DNA of 64,000 bases from Devosia naphthalenivorans (GTDB lineage: Bacteria > Pseudomonadota > Alphaproteobacteria > Rhizobiales > Devosiaceae), in the NCBI RefSeq assembly GCF_003056355.1, contig NZ_PYVW01000010.1, positions 1 to 64,000 of the forward strand, in the 5' to 3' direction. A program made the translations under genes and the position numbers. The notes under the pieces were generated by a model. It made no database searches, was not told where the DNA came from, and was given only the letters and a program-made list of their open reading frames with translations. Positions 51,353-60,545 of this stretch are shown here, one piece after another (the first letter of the stretch is position 1; the number at the start of each line of letters is the position of its first letter).

Positions 51353-51426
51353 TGGAGCGGGTGAAGGGAATCGAACCCTCGTCGTAAGCTTGGGAAGCTT
51401 CTGCTCTACCATTGAGCTACACCCGC
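51353..51426 (-). tRNA. tRNA-Gly (anticodon CCC)
   Basis: A 74-base cloverleaf including encoded CCA. Acceptor stem GCGGGTG/CACCCGC, D-arm GCTC-AATGGTA-GAGC, anticodon loop TTCCCAA and T-arm with GGTTCGATTCC. It closely matches the E. coli glyU layout. It lies 140 bases from the broken dCTP deaminase gene at the island edge. I did not see a copy of its 3' end at the far side of the island in this window. Confidence 0.95.
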
Positions 51427-51567
51427 CTGCGCCGGATAGATGCGGGAAATCGGGGGAGGCGTCAAGCGGGAGCGTGGGCGGATGGGCAAAAGAGGCAAAG
51501 CTTGCCTCGTTTTTGCTTTCGGCATGCTTCGCATCGGCCTTGGGAACGTCTCGCTTTAGCTGCCGCT

Positions 51568-52023
51568 TTACCCCGCAAATGGCTTGAAGTGCTTGGACAG
51601 CTTGAGCGTCTGCGCCTGATAGTTGGAACCCAGCGCCGACCCGTAGAGCCGGTCGGGTGCTTCGGCGAGCCGTTCATAAACCAGCCGGCCAATGGTCTGG
51701 CGGTGGCCAAGCAGGAATGGCACTTCGCGGCTGCGCACTTCGAGCACGGCGCGGCTGCCGGTGCCGCCGGCAGGGGAGTGGCCGAAACCGGGGTCGAAAA
51801 ACCCGGCATAGTGAACGCGGAACTCACCCACCAAGGGATCGAACGGCACCATTTCGGCGGCATGGGTGGGCGGCACATGCACCGCTTCATCCGAGACGAG
51901 GATATAGAATTCATCCGGGTCAAGGATCAACTCGTCCCGGCCACGGCTATAAAGCGGGTCCCAGAAATCGAGCACATCGAGGGCGGGCTTTCGAACGCCT
52001 GCGCGATGTTGATCGCGCCGCGA
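51568..52023 (-). pseudogene. 2'-deoxycytidine 5'-triphosphate deaminase, C-terminal fragment only
   Basis: About 150 residues match the C-terminal domain of the long (about 365-residue) alphaproteobacterial dCTP deaminase: LDFWDPL, LDPDEFYILVSDEAVHVPP, AAEMVPFDPLVGEFRVHYAGFFDPGFG, and a C-terminal LSKHFKPF. Conserved sequence continues upstream of the first possible start (RAGVRKPALDV) until a TGA at 52024, where homology stops. So the 5' two thirds are missing. The remaining part lacks the N-terminal dCTP deaminase domain and is probably inactive. The break is the left edge of the lower-GC island. Confidence 0.75.
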
Positions 52024-52157
52024 TCATGGAAAATGCTACTTTCCATAATATTCGGTGGAGCAACCCCGCAGTAGTATTGCATCGATCTCATTGGAGTCTT
52101 AGACCCACCATCCGCGCCTCTTTAATAATCTCCATGTTCGATCCGAAGGAGTTGTCT

Positions 52158-53911
52158 GTGTCTTCATTGAAAGTACGCCAGATCAAGGCCAAACTCCTGA
52201 ACCTCTTCGAGAAGTATCTGGATCTGTCTGACATCAGTCCGACGGACCAGGAACGGGAACCTAAGTTGTTAAGTAGGTGCTTGGCCGCTTACGCGCTGGT
52301 GATGACGGTTGGCTGCACGCCGGAAGATGCTGCCAAGTCTGTCTGGGACGGTTCTGACGATGATGGGATTGACGCGGCATTCATTGACCACACAGAAAAT
52401 CGTGTCGTGATAGCGCAGTCGAAGTGGATTACAGCCGGCAGCGGAGAGCCAAGTGCTGCCGACATCGCCGTTTTTGCCAATGGCGTCAAAGACATCTTCG
52501 AGCAAGAAGAAGACAACTTTGCGCTGAAGCTCCGTCCCCGCTTACAGGCGATTGGCCACGCGCTTGACGTGCCCGGAACAACTGTCGAAGTTGTTCTCAT
52601 CTCGACTGGTGCGAGCCAAATCGCAAAGCACGGCACCGCCAATCTGGACCGACTACTGCAAGAGCTAAACGGTCAAGACGTCGACGACACCGATGCACTG
52701 GTTTCCAGCACGGTGTTAGGCTTGGCAGAGGTCTACGCATCATTAGCGTCGGATAGTTCGGTTGAGGGCATTACGCTTGAAGCAAGTTTGCTCGACTGGT
52801 CAAAAGTTTCGGATCCGGAAATTGCATATTTCGGCGTCATAGATGGGCTTCAGCTAAAGGAATGGTGGACAGTTTTTGGCCGGCGCTTGGTTGCAAAGAA
52901 CATTCGACACGCACTTGGCACTACTGACGTGAACCTACAGATCCGAGAGACGGCACTGAACGATCCGGATCATTTTTGGTATTTCAACAACGGAGTGACC
53001 CTAATTGCCGATGCCGCCGTGCGAGCCCCCAAAGCTATTGGGTCTAAGGCTTCGGGGAACTTCCAGCTCAAAGGGGCGTCCATTGTAAATGGGGCCCAGA
53101 CCGTCAGCACATTGGGGCGCGTCGAAGACGAAGAAAGTCTGGGACGGGTTCGGGTGCCGATCAGAGTGATTTTGCTGGACGACGCACCTGCAGATTTGGG
53201 GCCAAGGTGACGCGCACGAACAATCTCCAGAACCGGGTAGAGGCGAGGGACTTCGTCGCGCACGATCCTGAACAAACGCGGCTCCAGCAAGAAATGCGTA
53301 TCGAGGGCATCGATTATCAGTTTCTCCGAAGTGAGGCTTCGCAGCCGTCACCCGCTTCGTGCGAACTCCTAGAGGTAACGACAGCACTAGCGTGTGCGTC
53401 TGCAGACTCTTCCATGGCTGTCAGCGTAAAGACAGGTATCGGGCGCTTCTTCCTCGATCTAAAGAAGACCCCATACATCGCGCTATTCAACCCTTCGACG
53501 AGTGGTGCTACGGCCTTCAACGCAACTCTCGTTCAGAGGGCAGTTGACCGGTGGATTGACCAAAAAAAGAAAACCATAAGCAAGAAAAGTGGGTTTGCTT
53601 GGGGAACTCTGATCCATGGAAACAGGATATTATCCGCAGCAGTTTTTGCCCGTATTGGGAAGGGAAAACTCACCCAGCCCATCGCGGAATTCCAAGGCAA
53701 GATGTCGGAGTTGAACATCCCAGACCATTGCGAGCAGGCTTACTCCGCAATGGTGGGCCACTTGGATGCGAATTACCAAGGCAAGTTCCTGGCGTTGCTT
53801 TTCAAAAACCCATCCATGAGTAAAGACGTTTACGAGGTCAGCAAATCCGCTGTTGCTTCTGTGGCAAGCGCCACGGCAAACGGCGCGGAACAAGCTGATG
53901 TATTTGATTAG
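52158..53911 (+). pseudogene. AIPR-family phage-defence protein, frameshifted
   Basis: Two frames together encode an abortive-infection AIPR protein of about 584 residues. The N-terminal part has a restriction-endonuclease-like motif, WDGSDDDGIDAAFI then VVIAQSKW, near residues 60-88. The middle has FWYFNNGVTLI and KGASIVNGAQTVSTLG, and after the break NLQNRVEARDFVAHDPEQ and EGIDYQFLRSE. The reading frame is lost at a G run (53198-53201), where one G is missing relative to the expected Ala-Lys-Val-Thr-Arg. GTG 52158 has GAAGGAG upstream. If the missing base is real, the gene is dead; if a sequencing slip, it is intact. GC is lower than in the core genes. Confidence 0.85.
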
Positions 53912-54704: not shown

Positions 54705-56605
54705 GGATCGCCCGTTTAAGGGTCGCGCGTTCAGACGGCATAAGTCATCGCCAAGTCGGGTCCTTGCAGTTGTTGCTGTCCAAAAAGGCCGGTGGCACGC
54801 GCTCGTCGCCCCAGATGCGGTTGCCGGCGCGCTTGGGATTGTCCCGGAATTGCTGATTCCGGGCGGCGAAATAGAGGTCGATCGCAGCACGAGCAGCGTC
54901 GACGGATTGGTAATTGCTGTTGTGGATTACGGCACGGGACATCCCACTGAACACAGACTCTATGACGTTGAGGAACTGTGCGCCGGACGGGAGTGGTGCA
55001 GTTTCCACTCGAGGCAGGCCAGATGCCTCTATTGTCAGGTTATGCTCAGTTATCCGTTGCTTTAGCTTCTTAGAGACGTGCCACGAGGCCGCGTCCCATG
55101 AAAGATAAAGCGTGCGGCGATCTGCATACCTTTCGAGCAGGACATCCATCATTCGAATCATCTCGGTCGTGTTTTTCTTATCGCTGTAGAAGTGCGTGAC
55201 CTGGTTACCGCTCAGTTCCAGGGCGGCTGTCATGATCATGCAGCCTTTGGACTTCTGCCATTGCGGTACCACCCGGTGAGGGCCGGGCGGATCGAGCATC
55301 AGTCCCTGTTTCATCCTGACGGCGAAAGGACCAAACTCGTCGATTGAGAAGAAGGCCTCGTCTGACGCCAGATTCGACAATATCGTTTGAACTGCGGCGA
55401 GCTTTTCACGATAGGCCGGATCTTGCGAGGTTAGGACAGTTCTCGCCTTTCGCCACTTCCAGCCAGCCTCTTGGATTATCTGGCGAAGGACATGCAAGCA
55501 GGCCGGAAAGCCTTGGCGTTCAAGTGTCGCCCTTAGATCACGCATAATCCAAGACGTTCGATTAACCCCGTGATCTTTCGGCGGCTCATGTAGGAGACGG
55601 AAAACCGCTGTCTTCAGAACTTCACTTTCGGCCTTCAGTGGCCCTCGCGTCATTGGCGCCATAAGTCGTTCGACGCCTGCTTCCCGATATGTCCGCAGAT
55701 AGCGGCGAGATGTGTTGCGGCTTAGACCAAGGTAGGCGCTGATCTGCTTAATGGGAAAGCCTTGTTCATGCGCCAACACTGTGACGGCTCGATTGCGCTG
55801 CCGGCTTCGCGGATCGTGGACGCTGCGGAGGAGCCGAGCGACGGTGTCCGGGTCTCCGCGTAAGGGCAGTTCCAGGCGGTCTCCGCGCAGTCGATCGATC
55901 CAGTTTGCCACTTCGGCTGCGCGCTCCGACCGGCGGTCGCGATGAAGGCGTAGCGCTATTCTGGCTGATCCTGGCAGGGCATGGGGATCGAGCCGGTAAG
56001 CACGTGGCGACCTAAGGACGCCCAGGCTGTCTGCAGATTCGATATCAGCGGCCGGCCTAACCACAAAGCTTATCTCAGGGACTTGCACGCTGCGGCAGTA
56101 TCGACGAACGCAATCGTAGCCTCCGCCGAAACTATGCTGATCCCGCAGAATGCGGAAAATACAGGCGACGCTTCTGCGGTCGCATTGTGGACGGGTCTCA
56201 TCCTCTGCGAGCATAATATCGATCAAGTGCTCATGATCACTAATCAACCTTGATCGTGTCGGGCGAACATAGCGGGAGGGCTGGTCGCGCCGCAGCATCT
56301 TCCGAATGCTGTTGCGGCTTACTCCCTCCGCCCGAGATACTCCCCTGATCGATTCACCCTCAGCCACCCGGTGCCGGACTCGGGCCCATTGGATCGGATC
56401 AGTGAACATTGGTTGACTCGCTTTCCCGCTCTTGCAGCGAAACGAAGAAGGCAGATGAAGTTGCGATGAGGGCAGACGCAATCCACCGCGCCTTGGTCGC
56501 ATTCTTCTACCTGAGAGGAGCATGGACATTGTAATCGGAATGTCGCGAGATATCGCCGACTTTAATGAAGACGATTGTGTTGTCATTTGAGGGTTGTGGC
56601 GATCC
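54705..56605. mobile_element. IS630-like insertion sequence (ends tentative)
   Basis: The transposase occupies 54745-56409. The only inverted match I found at sensible distances outside it is GGATCGCC at 54705-54712 with GGCGATCC at 56598-56605. These may be the terminal repeats, but they are short and no flanking TA duplication is obvious, so the true ends may differ. Confidence 0.4.
54745..56409 (-). CDS. IS630-family transposase with IstA-like N-terminal HTH
   Basis: A 554-residue transposase. N-terminal helix-turn-helix FTDPIQWARVRHRVAEGES then RGVSRAEGVSRNSIRKML resembles IS21 IstA. A second HTH of IS630 type is near 290 (FPIKQISAYLGLSRNTSRRYL), followed by a DDE_3 catalytic domain with Asp in FFSIDEFGPF, Asp in LSWDAASWH and Glu in LNVIESVFSG. 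All three acidic residues are present, so it may be active. ATG 56409 starts conserved sequence; the frame is open to 56670 without homology. Confidence 0.85.
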   Translation of the reverse strand: MFTDPIQWARVRHRVAEGESIRGVSRAEGVSRNSIRKMLRRDQPSRYVRPTRSRLISDHEHLIDIMLAEDETRPQCDRRSVACIFRILRDQHSFGGGYDCVRRYCRSVQVPEISFVVRPAADIESADSLGVLRSPRAYRLDPHALPGSARIALRLHRDRRSERAAEVANWIDRLRGDRLELPLRGDPDTVARLLRSVHDPRSRQRNRAVTVLAHEQGFPIKQISAYLGLSRNTSRRYLRTYREAGVERLMAPMTRGPLKAESEVLKTAVFRLLHEPPKDHGVNRTSWIMRDLRATLERQGFPACLHVLRQIIQEAGWKWRKARTVLTSQDPAYREKLAAVQTILSNLASDEAFFSIDEFGPFAVRMKQGLMLDPPGPHRVVPQWQKSKGCMIMTAALELSGNQVTHFYSDKKNTTEMIRMMDVLLERYADRRTLYLSWDAASWHVSKKLKQRITEHNLTIEASGLPRVETAPLPSGAQFLNVIESVFSGMSRAVIHNSNYQSVDAARAAIDLYFAARNQQFRDNPKRAGNRIWGDERVPPAFLDSNNCKDPTWR

Positions 56606-56703
56606 TCGGCAGTGAACGGGTACTTCTGGTACCTTGATGAAGGAAAAGGTCCACCTACCGACGAAATCACACCGCTTAGAGAGATAATTTAAATTGCGGG
56701 AAA

Positions 56704-57744
56704 TTAAATGCCTGGGTGGAGCTCGTCATGGCTAAAACAGCGGGAACACTCGGCTATGTACGAGCACAAAAGCCTCGCTGAGCTGATTATTTCCTTCCGG
56801 AGCTCCACCTTTTCCAGCCACTGACCTGGGACTGCTCGCGCACCGTAAAGAGCTCCAGCAAGATTGCCTGCCATCGAGGCCGTGGTATCGCTGTCTCCGT
56901 TATGATTAGCCGCCGCCGCAACTGCATCGTGAAGCGAGTTGGTTGTAAGAACTGCATTGACAGTAATGGCGAGAGCGTCATCAGCTGTCCATCCGAAGCC
57001 GATCCATTCGGGACGCTGAAAAAAATCTGACCATTTCCATGGTGCGTTCATGACGGCATGCAACGTGGGCTCGTGACCTGATTGAAGGCGCAGAAACATA
57101 AGTGATCGTTCAACCGCCATGGCAATTGTGTGCCCTTTCATGACCCAGGCAATCATCATCGCGAAGGCTCCGGCCGCAATGTACCCACGCGGATCGTCAT
57201 GTGTCAGGCGAGCATCAGCAACGGCCGCATGGTAGGCTCTTTGAGGTGTCGCGCTGTAAAGGAGTCCGAAAGGAGCAGCTCTTGCCACCGCTCCATTTCC
57301 TGGAGCGACGATACCAGCTGATCGGCCTAGCTCTTTAGCTTCGCTCAGCGCCGCCATCGTCTCGGCATTAGGCACCCGATCGCCGTGCGCAGCAATGACA
57401 TCGATCAGAGCCTCATAGCTGTTTTGGAAATCAGGAAGAAGCGGACTCGCTATGCCCTGCGTGGAGAGCCAAGCCAAATAGGCGACGTGAAGGTGTTCAA
57501 CTTCGCTCAGCGACTTATCACGGCGGCTCTCGATCAAGCCCGCAACGGTGAATAGAATTAGCTGCGTCTCGTCGGTCACTCGGGCGAGAGTCTCGTATCT
57601 CGGCCAAAACTCCTGCACCCCGCGCGGGCCGCACTTGATGATCATCTCTGCGTGTGAAGAGAATTCAAAAGGCGCTCCAAGAGCATCTCCACATGCGCCG
57701 CCTAACAAACATCCAAGGACCCGCTCCCGCGTGCTGATCTTCAT
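56704..57744 (-). CDS. ADP-ribosylglycohydrolase family protein
   Basis: A 346-residue DraG/ARH-fold hydrolase. GCLLGGACGDALGAPFEF at 11-28, first metal motif VTDETQLILF near 56 (the usual TDDT is TDET here), and the C-terminal metal motif NHNGDSDTTASMAGNLAGA near 285. Such enzymes remove ADP-ribose from proteins, nucleic acids or small molecules and are common in defence or toxin-linked islands. No ADP-ribosyltransferase is seen next to it. It stands alone between the IS and the Rep-like gene, with island-type codon use. Confidence 0.85.
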   Translation of the reverse strand: MKISTRERVLGCLLGGACGDALGAPFEFSSHAEMIIKCGPRGVQEFWPRYETLARVTDETQLILFTVAGLIESRRDKSLSEVEHLHVAYLAWLSTQGIASPLLPDFQNSYEALIDVIAAHGDRVPNAETMAALSEAKELGRSAGIVAPGNGAVARAAPFGLLYSATPQRAYHAAVADARLTHDDPRGYIAAGAFAMMIAWVMKGHTIAMAVERSLMFLRLQSGHEPTLHAVMNAPWKWSDFFQRPEWIGFGWTADDALAITVNAVLTTNSLHDAVAAAANHNGDSDTTASMAGNLAGALYGARAVPGQWLEKVELRKEIISSARLLCSYIAECSRCFSHDELHPGI

Positions 57745-57862: not shown

Positions 57863-58063
57863 ATAGTTTCGGATGGATACGCAGACCACGACGGTCATCC
57901 TCTGATCTCGCTCCTCCCTCATCTTCTGCAAACCCGACAGGACCGTTTCCTGGACGGGTTTGAAAGCTTTGGAAAAGAAGCTTCAGAAGCTCTGTGGAAG
58001 GATTTCACTAATTACCGGAAAGCCGATGCAATCGGAGCTCCGGTTTACCTGGAAAGGAAATGA
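57863..58063 (+). pseudogene. 5'-truncated ORF coupled to the Rep-like gene
   Basis: A 66-codon frame with no ATG, GTG or TTG start. It encodes a coding-like tail (FLDGFESFGKEASEALW, NYRKADAIGAPVYLERK) and ends in TGA overlapping the Rep-like ATG (ATGA). It looks like the surviving 3' end of a gene once in operon with it. No family is recognised. The bases between 57745 and 57862 show no gene. Confidence 0.45.
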
Positions 58064-58632
58064 ATAATCCACATCGTATCAATGAAGCCTATGCCGAATA
58101 CTTCAAGAGCTGGTTCCTCGAACACGCTTCACGCGGCACTAAATCATACTTTGTAACGCTTACGTTTGAACACGAAGCGCAACGTCGCCAAAGGCGACAG
58201 GCCGAAGGCCTCTCCCGAGGCGCATTCGAGATGAAAGCGTTTGATCACCTTTATAATCTGATCTCTCGAAGGCTGATCGGTAGGAACTACCACCGAAGCT
58301 TCAATCAGCTTCGACTTCCCCGCGTTGCCGCGTTCCTTGATGCCGAAGGCTCAAGGCATTGGCGTTGCGACGGGGAGCTCTCAAACATTCACCTTCACAC
58401 TGTATGGATCATTGAAGACGCACTCACGGCATCGTTTGAAGAGGCGATGAACATGAACGGACCAATGATCGATGCTTGGCGCAGCTTGAGCTTCGATGAA
58501 ATCGATGTTCGAGAGATCGACAGCGGCAGCGAAGGTGATGTCAGCACAGTTGTTGCCTACGCTTCAAAGCTAATCGGCTTCACCAACAATGAGCTGTCGC
58601 TTGGACGGGATTTCGAGATCTATCCTCGCTAG
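58060..58632 (+). CDS. Small HUH-type Rep-like protein
   Basis: A 190-residue protein with the order of rolling-circle initiators: KSYFVTLTFE near residue 30 (motif 1), NIHLHTVWII near 111 (His-hydrophobic-His, motif 2) and VVAYASKLIGF near 170 (Tyr-x-x-Lys, motif 3). This would give a single-Tyr HUH nuclease that nicks and joins DNA. GGAAAGGA precedes ATG 58060. A 12-bp perfect hairpin lies 126 bases downstream. A truncated paralogue ends at 60020. The assignment rests on motif order alone; a non-catalytic relative is possible. Confidence 0.6.
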   Translation: MNNPHRINEAYAEYFKSWFLEHASRGTKSYFVTLTFEHEAQRRQRRQAEGLSRGAFEMKAFDHLYNLISRRLIGRNYHRSFNQLRLPRVAAFLDAEGSRHWRCDGELSNIHLHTVWIIEDALTASFEEAMNMNGPMIDAWRSLSFDEIDVREIDSGSEGDVSTVVAYASKLIGFTNNELSLGRDFEIYPR

Positions 58633-58758
58633 GCAGACTAAAGTCCGTTTCGAAAAAGACATTTTCCATCCGAAATTCTCGTCATTCCACGACAGAAATC
58701 GTACCACTTAATTGAATCAGCATGAACAAGCCCGGATACACTGGCCATTTATCCGGTA

Positions 58759-58785
58759 GGCAATAAGCTTGTTAAGCTTATTGCC
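58759..58785. repeat. 12-bp hairpin downstream of Rep-like copy 1
   Basis: Perfect arms GGCAATAAGCTT and AAGCTTATTGCC with loop GTT. No T-tract follows on either strand, so it is not a standard terminator. A similar AATAAGCT hairpin lies at 60166-60188, at a comparable distance behind the second Rep-like fragment, so it may mark the element's end or origin. Confidence 0.6.
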
Positions 58786-58873
58786 TGAATTTGACTTTGA
58801 CGTTCGGGCCTAAGTCCGGTTGCGCCATCTGCCCTCCCTGATATGTTCGCCCAGGAATTTGCGGGGCATTAAG

Positions 58874-59830
58874 TTGGCAGTCAAAAAATCGGAAATCTAC
58901 AGCAAGCTTTGGGCAAGCTGCGACGCATTGCGGGGCGGCATGGATGCCTCGCAATACAAAGACTACGTACTGGTGCTGCTCTTTGTAAAATACGTTTCCG
59001 ACAAATATGCGGGCGATCCCAATGGCATAATCGAGGTGCCCGCCGGCGGCAGCTTCGCCGACATGGTTGCGCTTAAAGGCGACAAGGAGATTGGCGAGAA
59101 GATCAACATCATCATCGCCAAGCTCGCCGAGGCCAACGACCTGAAGGGCGTGATCGATGTCGCCGATTTCAACGATCCTGAGAAGCTCGGCACCGGCAAG
59201 GAGATGGTGGATCGCCTCTCCAACCTCGTTGCCATCTTCAACCGCCCGGAGCTGGATTTCCGCAGGAACCGCGCTGAAGGTGACGATATCCTCGGCGACG
59301 CCTATGAATATCTCATGCGCCACTTCGCGACTGAGTCGGGCAAGAGCAAGGGCCAGTTCTACACGCCCGCCGAAGTATCGCGGATCATGGCCAAGGCGAT
59401 CGGCATCAGCGCATCGAAAAGCGCCGACCAGACGATTCACGATCCTACCTGCGGCTCGGGATCGCTGCTGCTGAAAGCGCGATGAAGCGCCGCATGGCAT
59501 CACCATCTATGGTCAGGAAAAGGATGTCGCCACGCGCGCCCTGGCCAAGATGAACATGGTGCTGCATGATTGCCCGACGGCGGAGATCTGGCGGGACAAC
59601 ACGCTTTCAAGCCCCCACTTCAAGAACCCCGAGGGCGGCTTGAAGACGTTCGATTTCGTCGTCGCCAATCCGCCCTTCTCGGACAAGGCGTGGGGCACGG
59701 GGATTAATCCAGCCAATGACCAGTTCGGCCGCTTTGGCTATGGCGTGCCGCCCGCGAAGAACGGCGATTATGCCTATCTCCTGCATGTCATCGCCTCGCT
59801 GAAGACGAACGGCAAAGGCGCGGTCATGAA
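58874..59830 (+). pseudogene. Type I restriction-modification methyltransferase hsdM, frameshifted and truncated
   Basis: The N-terminal half of HsdM: KSEIYSKLWASCDALRGGMDASQYKDYVLVLLFVKYVSDKY, the FYTPAEVSRIMA segment near 168 and SAM-motif DPTCGSGSLLLKA near 190. The frame breaks at 59477-59480 (GCGC in place of codons for Ala-Asp), where a TGA follows, and continues in another frame with ALAKMNMVLHD and FVVANPPFSDKAWG (the catalytic NPPF). Homology stops at GKGAV near 59828, where the frame runs into a Rep-like C-terminus. TTG 58874 starts the conserved MAVKKSE-type N-terminus. No hsdS or hsdR is nearby, so the system is dead. Confidence 0.85.
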
Positions 59831-60020
59831 TGGACCAAGGGCACATGATCTTAGAGCACTAAGCTTTGACCAGATCGACTTGGCGCAGCTCGATATCACC
59901 AACAGCGTTGAGGTGAAGCAAGTGATCTCTTACGCTTCAAAGCTAATCGGCTTCACCAACGAAGAGCTTACACTCGGTGGTGCCGATTTCGAGATGTACC
60001 CTATACCAAGAGGCGCATAG
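59827..60020 (+). pseudogene. C-terminal fragment of a second Rep-like protein, fused to hsdM
   Basis: About 64 residues (MNGPRAHDLRALSFDQIDL..., ISYASKLIGFTNEELTL, FEMYPI) align with the last 60 residues of the 58060-58632 protein, including the Tyr-x-x-Lys motif. A 30-base stretch around TACGCTTCAAAGCTAATCGG is identical in both. It is in frame with the hsdM fragment. The junction at ATGAATGGACCA corresponds to ATGAACGGACCA in the complete copy. Confidence 0.75.
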
Positions 60021-60317
60021 CGCTCTGGTGCATTTGACCCTGGGGTCTGAACGAGATGCTAAAAATAGAACAGGGTTGCGATCAAGCATTTCGGAGCAGT
60101 ACTGTAAAATATCTTGCCATGCCGACGCGATGTATCGTCCTGGGAATAAGCAGTTTTCTAGTACGAAATAAGCTAAAGAAGCTTATTTGCAGCTCAGCCA
60201 AGGCGACATTGGTCAAATAGACCTACGTTCAGTCACCAGCATGTATCGCTTCGGGAATCCTGTTTGTGCGAGCAACGTAGCACGGGCGCTCTTGTGCCCT
60301 CCTTTCTCGATCCCACG
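60021..60317. other. Non-coding remnant sequence
   Basis: No gene is seen. A 9-bp hairpin at 60166-60188 (arms AAATAAGCT / AGCTTATTT, loop AAAGA) resembles the hairpin behind Rep-like copy 1. The rest is AT-richer sequence with many stops. Confidence 0.5.
60166..60188. repeat. Hairpin downstream of the Rep-like fragment (copy 2)
   Basis: Arms AAATAAGCT and AGCTTATTT with a 5-base loop, 146 bases past the Rep-like fragment's stop. It shares the AATAAGCT/AGCTTATT core with 58759-58785. Confidence 0.55.
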
Positions 60318-60545
60318 TCGGCCAAACCCTGCAGCACTAACCGATGGTTCTCTCCTCAAGCACCTGCCGCGGATCGAAGAGATAATCTAGCCCCAAAGGC
60401 TGGTCTGCACTGCGGCGGTGGTCTGCACTGCATTGGTGAGGGTATCTCCGAGCGGCTCGACGTGGTCCCTGCCCAGTTCGGGTGATCGTGACCCGTCGCC
60501 CCAAATATACCTGCTGCTTATGCACGGACGGCGTGTCGCAAGCCC
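60318..60545 (+). pseudogene. IS66-family tnpC transposase remnant
   Basis: Read across frames, this encodes the zinc-finger region of IS66 TnpC: RRPNPAALTDGSLLKHLPRIEEII, then LHCGGGLHCIGEGISERLDVVPAQF and, after a frame change, RVIVTRRPKYTCCLCTDGVSQAPAP. At least one in-frame stop (TAG 60388) and one frameshift (near 60480) interrupt it. The DDE domain and the tnpA/tnpB genes are missing, so this is a dead fragment. Confidence 0.75.

Follow-up and report, generated by a model that had tools for sequence, protein, structure and literature searches.

We analyzed a window of 64,000 nucleotides from Devosia naphthalenivorans (positions 1 to 64,000 of contig NZ_PYVW01000010.1, hereafter contig C2). 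An open reading frame (ORF) of 190 codons with an ATG start (58060 to 58632, + strand) encodes a protein that, judging from its catalytic residues and predicted fold, can very probably be classed as a minimal Rep-type HUH nickase; the nicking activity itself we infer. The gene is followed by a hairpin with a perfect 13-bp stem and a 3-nt loop (hairpin 1, 58758 to 58786), which is a candidate nick or recognition site, or a terminator. Farther downstream, the C-terminal third of a second HUH gene (59826 to 60020, + strand) is joined in frame to a broken hsdM and precedes another hairpin, with a 9-bp stem (hairpin 2, 60166 to 60188). The hairpins begin 126 and 146 nt past the stop codons of the 190-residue gene and of the truncated paralogue, respectively, and share the core AATAAGCT/AGCTTATT. 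A first-pass annotation of the window had described the complete 190-residue protein with LTF, HLH, and YASK motifs, a 64-residue C-terminal paralogue fused in frame to hsdM, and both hairpins, all of which we found in place.

In the 190-residue protein, the LTF, HLH, and YASK motifs occupy residues 34 to 36, 111 to 113, and 167 to 170. An alignment of 13 family members, including the window's own sequence, showed that T33, H111, H113, Y167, K170, and P189 are invariant, and the HxH and YxxK motifs are also kept, by eye, in two members found later (in genomes G097 and G854). In a structure model, H111 and H113 lie on a strand (residues 111 to 119), and the invariant Y167 and K170 belong to a helix (residues 158 to 170) located C-terminal to the HUH motif. 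Reps carry the HUH motif ahead of the catalytic tyrosine, whereas relaxases have the tyrosine N-terminal to the HUH motif. We rejected a conjugative relaxase, as the tyrosine is C-terminal to the HUH motif and the protein has no Pfam match of any kind.

The AlphaFold2 model, built from four sequences, reached a predicted local distance difference test (pLDDT) score of 69.3 and a predicted template modeling (pTM) score of 0.72. When the Foldseek candidates were compared with VIA-align, first place went to SIRV1 ORF119 (2x3g; Z 9.4, root mean square deviation of 3.4 over 114 residues), followed by the Rep nuclease domains of adeno-associated virus at Z of ∼7, with parvovirus NS1 and a Helitron transposase also listed. 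The entry 2x3g is titled hypothetical protein in the PDB; we take SIRV1 ORF119 to be a Rep. The window protein resembles this and other single-domain HUH Reps in its small size and HUH fold, ORF119 being its best structural match, but the two share only 16% identity, and ORF119 comes from an archaeal virus, whereas the window protein is encoded on a bacterial integrated island. In the viral library BFVD, 31 matches passed an E value of 0.001; most are nameless, and those with a name comprise microvirus replication initiators and the SMRV1 replication protein, with a phiX-type GpA next at 1.8e-3. Given these structural matches and the invariant residues, we regard the predicted HUH fold as well supported. 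The Rep-like assignment proposed in the first-pass annotation thus held, with invariant catalytic residues and a Rep fold in a model of medium confidence.

No Pfam, PHROGs, or NCBIfam family matched the 190-residue protein at an E value of 1, a threshold at which the HMMER filters drop most matches above 0.1. When all 13 members were scanned against the libraries, one weakly matched REP_ORF2-G2P (E value of 0.0083) and one weakly matched phrog_17102, of unknown function (E value of 0.0046). A PDB sequence search with the HUH profile returned a single, unrelated match (E value of 0.23), and searches of plasmids, phages, and viral contigs yielded no relatives; a single-sequence scan of genome contigs was likewise unproductive. 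Relatives are rare: with the own genome counted each time, they turned up in 8 of the 136 genomes from the family, in 5 of the 397 from the order, and in 2 of the 385 drawn from the class. A collection of 84,980 species contained three loci with relatives, two of them in the Devosiaceae Devosia sp. 66-14 (G091) and Maritalea porphyrae (G114). Besides the window's fragment, we thus had 15 complete HUH genes in hand, and the closest of the other members is 37% identical to the window protein at best. Among the literature matches listed, mostly non-subscription and covered as titles and the starts of abstracts, nothing described this HUH family.

The HUH gene almost certainly belongs to a genomic island of 36,966 bp (C2:51389-88354) that runs past the window, because 602-bp direct repeats that start in the anticodon loop of a tRNA-Gly(ccc) gene flank it. 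The tRNA gene (51353 to 51426, − strand) is the attachment gene; the left repeat starts within it (51389 to 51990), and its partner lies outside the window at C2:88355-88956. The repeats are identical at 567 of 602 positions, without any difference over the first 109. The G+C content falls from 60 to 65% to about 50 to 56% between 51.4 and about 88 kb of the contig, except for one 2-kb interval at 66 kb (60.0%) and the right edge (58.8%). Attachment (att) sites pairing 50 to 60 kb with 79 to 84 kb were considered and discarded, as the longest repeat found was a single one of 13 bp; the right end is at 88.35 kb instead. The island encodes a tyrosine integrase (C2:79940-81001) and a B-family DNA polymerase (PolB) of 850 residues (85479 to 88031; Pfam DNA_pol_B_2, E value of 6e-10). 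Accordingly, the first-pass view of a small mobile element gave way to that of a gene inside a 37-kb integrase-bearing island with att repeats of its own.

The island polymerase matched 46 plasmid records, among them Fusobacterium nucleatum pKCOM1250 (E value of 4e-44, 28% identity over 68% of the query) and Staphylococcus epidermidis pSE-12228-03 (E value of 1e-30, 27% identity over 60% of the query), the identities to plasmid polymerases being only 25 to 28%. Three of these plasmids were inspected, and all three carry relaxase or mobilization genes near the polymerase gene. PRD1-like protein-primed polymerases matched weakly (E value of 4e-6), and a PDB sequence search with the island PolB gave nothing useful. 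Four aligned polymerases show TTDG or VTDG at the placed motif C, where the first Asp is missing, and (K/R)TR downstream; the island polymerase carries RTRG. We assume that KTRG is the signature of primer-independent PolB (piPolB) and that pSE-12228-03 is a pipolin. The lack of the first Asp of motif C is stated for primer-independent PolBs in the available text of PMC7544198, and that of PMC9710591 names S. epidermidis plasmids. From the matches to plasmid polymerases, the missing Asp, the (K/R)TR motif, and the weak protein-primed matches, we call the island pipolin-type and its PolB putatively primer-independent. Like pipolins, it also has a tyrosine recombinase and att direct repeats that overlap a tRNA gene, as does a related island in genome G116. 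Pipolins, as the available parts of PMC9710591 and PMC7385651 present them, share with the window island a PolB of the primer-independent type, att repeats at a tRNA gene, a tyrosine recombinase, and restriction genes; unlike them, the window island has a Rep-type HUH gene and spans 37 kb with metabolic cargo and decay. Among the papers searched, none mentions both Devosia and pipolins.

Two sister islands occupy the tRNA-Gly site in other genomes. The G116 island is bounded by a 49-bp repeat (746676/761511) and encodes a related integrase and a polymerase 57% identical to that of the window island, but no HUH gene was found in the 60 kb fetched around it; its local sequence does not align to the HUH locus of the window, and G116 is not among the HUH-protein matches listed for the genome searches. 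The HUH gene is therefore not needed for a pipolin-type island, and we rejected it as a core pipolin gene. The G091 island is bounded by a 38-bp repeat (1045123/1068694) and carries an HUH gene, hsd genes (by eye), and a gene for a helicase-like protein, whereas the G091 genome has no such polymerase at an E value of 0.001. Both repeats start at the same point as the window repeat, to within a base, and the three integrases are 58 to 63% identical to each other. The polymerase was also absent from the 11 other HUH-bearing genomes searched, a set that leaves aside G097 and G854. Across 367 genomes from the order it was present in two, one of them the own genome. Since G116 has PolB without HUH and G091 has HUH without PolB, these sequences indicate that HUH and polymerase are separate modules on one type of island. 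Inside the G091 island, just past the integrase stop, the tRNA-Gly att core recurs as a 17-bp copy (L038, G091:C6:1058942), which is perhaps part of attP or a trace of island accretion.

The hairpin sequence is rare. The pattern AATAAGCTN{0,12}AGCTTATT occurs at two places in the own 4.49-Mb genome, both of them the hairpins described here, and AATAAGCTN{3,7}AGCTTATT was present in 1 of 135 other genomes. A 42-nt hairpin block, picked after it had been seen, scored 16.0 between the paralogues versus −3.4 (standard deviation of 2.9, best 8.5) in 1,000 single-base shuffles. In contrast, neither the spacers between stop and hairpin nor the 100 nt beyond the hairpins align between the paralogues, as 404 and 295 of 500 shuffles, respectively, scored as well or better. 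Because the hairpin block is conserved beyond shuffles while spacers and flanks are unalignable, this comparison argues that gene and hairpin are not paired by chance, although the block was chosen post hoc. A 7-bp inverted repeat, CCGGATA-N11-TATCCGG, ends one base before hairpin 1 (58732 to 58756) and was seen at this copy only; it is possibly the Rep-binding part of an origin. Folded together as single-stranded DNA, hairpin 1 and this repeat reached a z score of −5.2 against shuffles.

That the hairpin is the recognition or nick target of the HUH protein is an idea to which we give somewhat less than even odds. Rather unlikely, in our estimate, is a role of the hairpins as ordinary transcription terminators for the HUH genes, which would be compatible with the protein being a nickase. 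Hairpin 1 was indeed called terminator-like, one of 4 such calls in the stretch versus 2.8 expected in shuffles, and control genes have downstream hairpins scoring as high (at least 15.5 at 5 of 131 genes, at least 15 at 6 of 131). However, the T-rich tail is weak, and the stem sequence itself, beyond its pairing, is kept between paralogues whose spacers cannot be aligned. Hairpins upstream of several members had been hinted at with 60 shuffles, but with 150 shuffles and control genes the counts came to 3 of 13 members versus 12 of 131 control genes, too few to claim.

We then compared the positions of 13 members with those of the integrase and resolvase domains of their own genomes (G097 and G854 lie outside this comparison). 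Eight of the 13 have a recombinase domain within 2.5 kb, versus a chance expectation of 0.24 computed from 164 domain matches in about 48.6 Mb; genes on islands sit nearer to integrases anyway, so that part of this proximity is island membership. The distances range from 0.3 to 1.8 kb (G091, G114, G080, G073, G036, G412, and both members of G470). In seven of these eight cases a recombinase gene precedes the HUH gene on the same strand, sometimes with genes between, and in G114 the two are convergent. As a separate observation, in two species of the window's genus (L041 and L042) a longer HUH relative follows a large serine recombinase on the same strand, about 210 bp or less downstream.

Other neighbors are defense genes, and the HUH gene might be cargo of defense islands, linked to restriction-modification or other defense genes and without a role in mobility. 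An hsdM gene is a neighbor in the window and, by eye, in G091; a restriction/methylase-like pair lies beside it in G854, also by eye (the gene in G097 being near an insertion sequence); in Afipia birgiae (L055) the HUH relative is a few kilobases from ThsA/ThsB-like (Thoeris) genes; and a neighbor in G114 is a PNP-domain protein that matches PADLOC candidates. The absence of HUH from the G116 island would also suit a cargo gene. However, the HUH protein itself matches no PADLOC model at an E value of 0.01, and the defense neighbors vary, while the same-strand upstream recombinase recurs. We therefore consider a pure cargo role unlikely.

Searching the own genome (4,488,200 bases in 55 contigs, E value up to 1) for the protein recovered two places only, the gene itself and 59820 to 60002, where residues 130 to 189 (60 residues) are matched at 55% identity. 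This truncated paralogue keeps the Tyr and Lys of YxxK and lacks the HUH motif. It lies in a fusion ORF (59550 to 60020) that begins in hsdM. The 5′ part of hsdM (58874 to 59485, + strand; HsdM_N and the start of N6_Mtase), whose start codon was placed from an alignment with the G010 protein, is ended by a frame change near 59485, a frameshift judging from the two frames, and a further part follows in another frame (59486 to 59827, + strand; N6_Mtase). At 59827 the DNA ceases to resemble the hsdM genes of G010 and G079; the G010 gene has an open frame of 817 codons and is followed by hsdS- and hsdR-like genes (by eye). In the window, 59827 is followed by the HUH C-terminal third, hairpin 2, and then a remnant of an IS66-type transposase (match at 60319 to 60398, named by eye), which has two matches in each of the same-genus genomes G037, G051, and G054. 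As hsdM is split over two frames and ends abruptly at 59827, and neither hsdS nor hsdR was recognized by eye among the island ORFs listed, we found no functional type I restriction-modification system.

The first-pass annotation had read this arrangement as two copies of a hairpin-ended rolling-circle element, one of which captured or broke hsdM, as one-ended transposition could bring about. Two paralogues, each with its hairpin, are present, but as one complete gene and one C-terminal third diverged to 55% identity, which led us to reject a recent duplication of one element; and while the hairpin is tied to the gene, its reading as the terminus of a small transposable element is not supported. 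The junction looks like a deletion that joined hsdM and the second HUH gene at a shared ATG, for which one-ended transposition is not needed; such an event, where the island is decaying, would have left the second HUH gene truncated. Two insertions of a small hairpin-ended HUH transposable element, one of them into hsdM by one-ended transposition, would explain why two paralogues each precede the same rare hairpin and why the flanks beyond do not align, but they are highly unlikely given the divergence of the paralogues, the single match in 11 of 13 protein-bearing genomes searched whole (G470 has two divergent ones), a protein without any Pfam match and hence none to transposase families, an IS66-type remnant rather than recognizable hsdM past hairpin 2, and the lack of a hairpin boundary in the other members, which are distant (at most 37% identity), no close copy having been found outside the locus. 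For the same lack we rejected the hairpin as a general end of the HUH family. IS200/IS605, RAYT, and IS91/Helitron elements, which we take to combine HUH chemistry with hairpins adjoining the gene, differ in that the present case shows no Pfam match, no multicopy spread, and no conserved end. Ten codons (YASKLIGFTN; 58558 to 58587 and 59931 to 59960) are identical at every base between the paralogues despite the 55% protein identity, possibly a patch of gene conversion or a constraint at the DNA level.

Several other genes were noted on the island. An ADP-ribosylglycohydrolase-like gene (56704 to 57744, − strand; named by eye) has a relative on the G116 island (tblastx, 43% over 204 residues). 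An AIPR/AbiU-like gene at 51657 to 53911 is seemingly split into two frames, and an IS630-like transposase frame is joined to an IS21-like start at 54745 to 56670 (− strand, by eye). A 1,041-residue metallophosphoesterase (L058, C2:74786-77911) resembles the PADLOC candidate defense protein PDC-S60.

We favor, with a rough probability of 0.55, the interpretation that the 190-residue protein is a Rep-like initiator or mobilization nickase of integrative islands, with the hairpin as its candidate site. Tyr167 would nick one strand and so start rolling-circle replication or mobilization of the excised, circular island, and the AATAAGCT hairpin, ∼130 nt past the stop, would be where the protein binds or nicks, in the manner of other rep genes that have their origin downstream. 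A comparable module is described in the available text of PMC13107129 for the SNJ2 provirus (Rep-Arvir), where an inverted repeat and a hairpin lie downstream of the rep gene (at positions 156 to 166 and 176 to 197), the hairpin being the likely origin, with an integrase on the same element; unlike the present protein, that Rep is related to Rep_trans and not to HUH, and it belongs to an archaeal virus. The HUH protein would be an exchangeable module and not the only replication gene of the island, as a sister island has the polymerase without this protein. A bolder scheme, which we consider very unlikely, is that the HUH protein nicks the hairpin beside its own gene and the primer-independent polymerase of the island copies the exposed strand, the HUH family being a swappable replication or mobilization module of integrase-bearing islands. 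We know of no report of such a Rep-plus-piPolB mode of replication.

Several results weigh against the favored interpretation. Confidence in the model is only medium (pLDDT of 69), a Foldseek search against the PDB gave no match below an E value of 0.001 and placed unrelated proteins on top, and unrelated ferredoxin-like folds reach Z of 6 to 7 in VIA-align, so only the first match (2x3g) stands out. The hairpin 2 region is weak and folds no better than shuffles (z score of −0.3), and significant downstream hairpins show no enrichment at HUH genes (2 of 13) over control genes (20 of 131). The G116 island, with integrase and PolB, does without the HUH gene. For five of the 13 members, no recombinase domain lies that close (2.5 kb): the nearest is 17 to 24 kb away in the window, G103, G148, and G459, the island integrase lying 21 kb from the HUH gene of the window, and Afipia was counted as a no, its contig being unmatched and no recombinase being recognized by eye in the 12 kb available. 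Finally, HUH genes also lie beside defense genes and so may be cargo.

Altogether, our analysis adds a very small and sparsely distributed HUH family, unnamed in scans with Pfam, NCBIfam, and PHROGs, that is tied by gene order to the site-specific recombinases of islands. Three Devosiaceae islands at one tRNA-Gly site appear to swap replication-type modules (PolB, HUH, and a helicase-like protein), and their comparison lets the replication and movement of pipolins and similar islands be tested directly.

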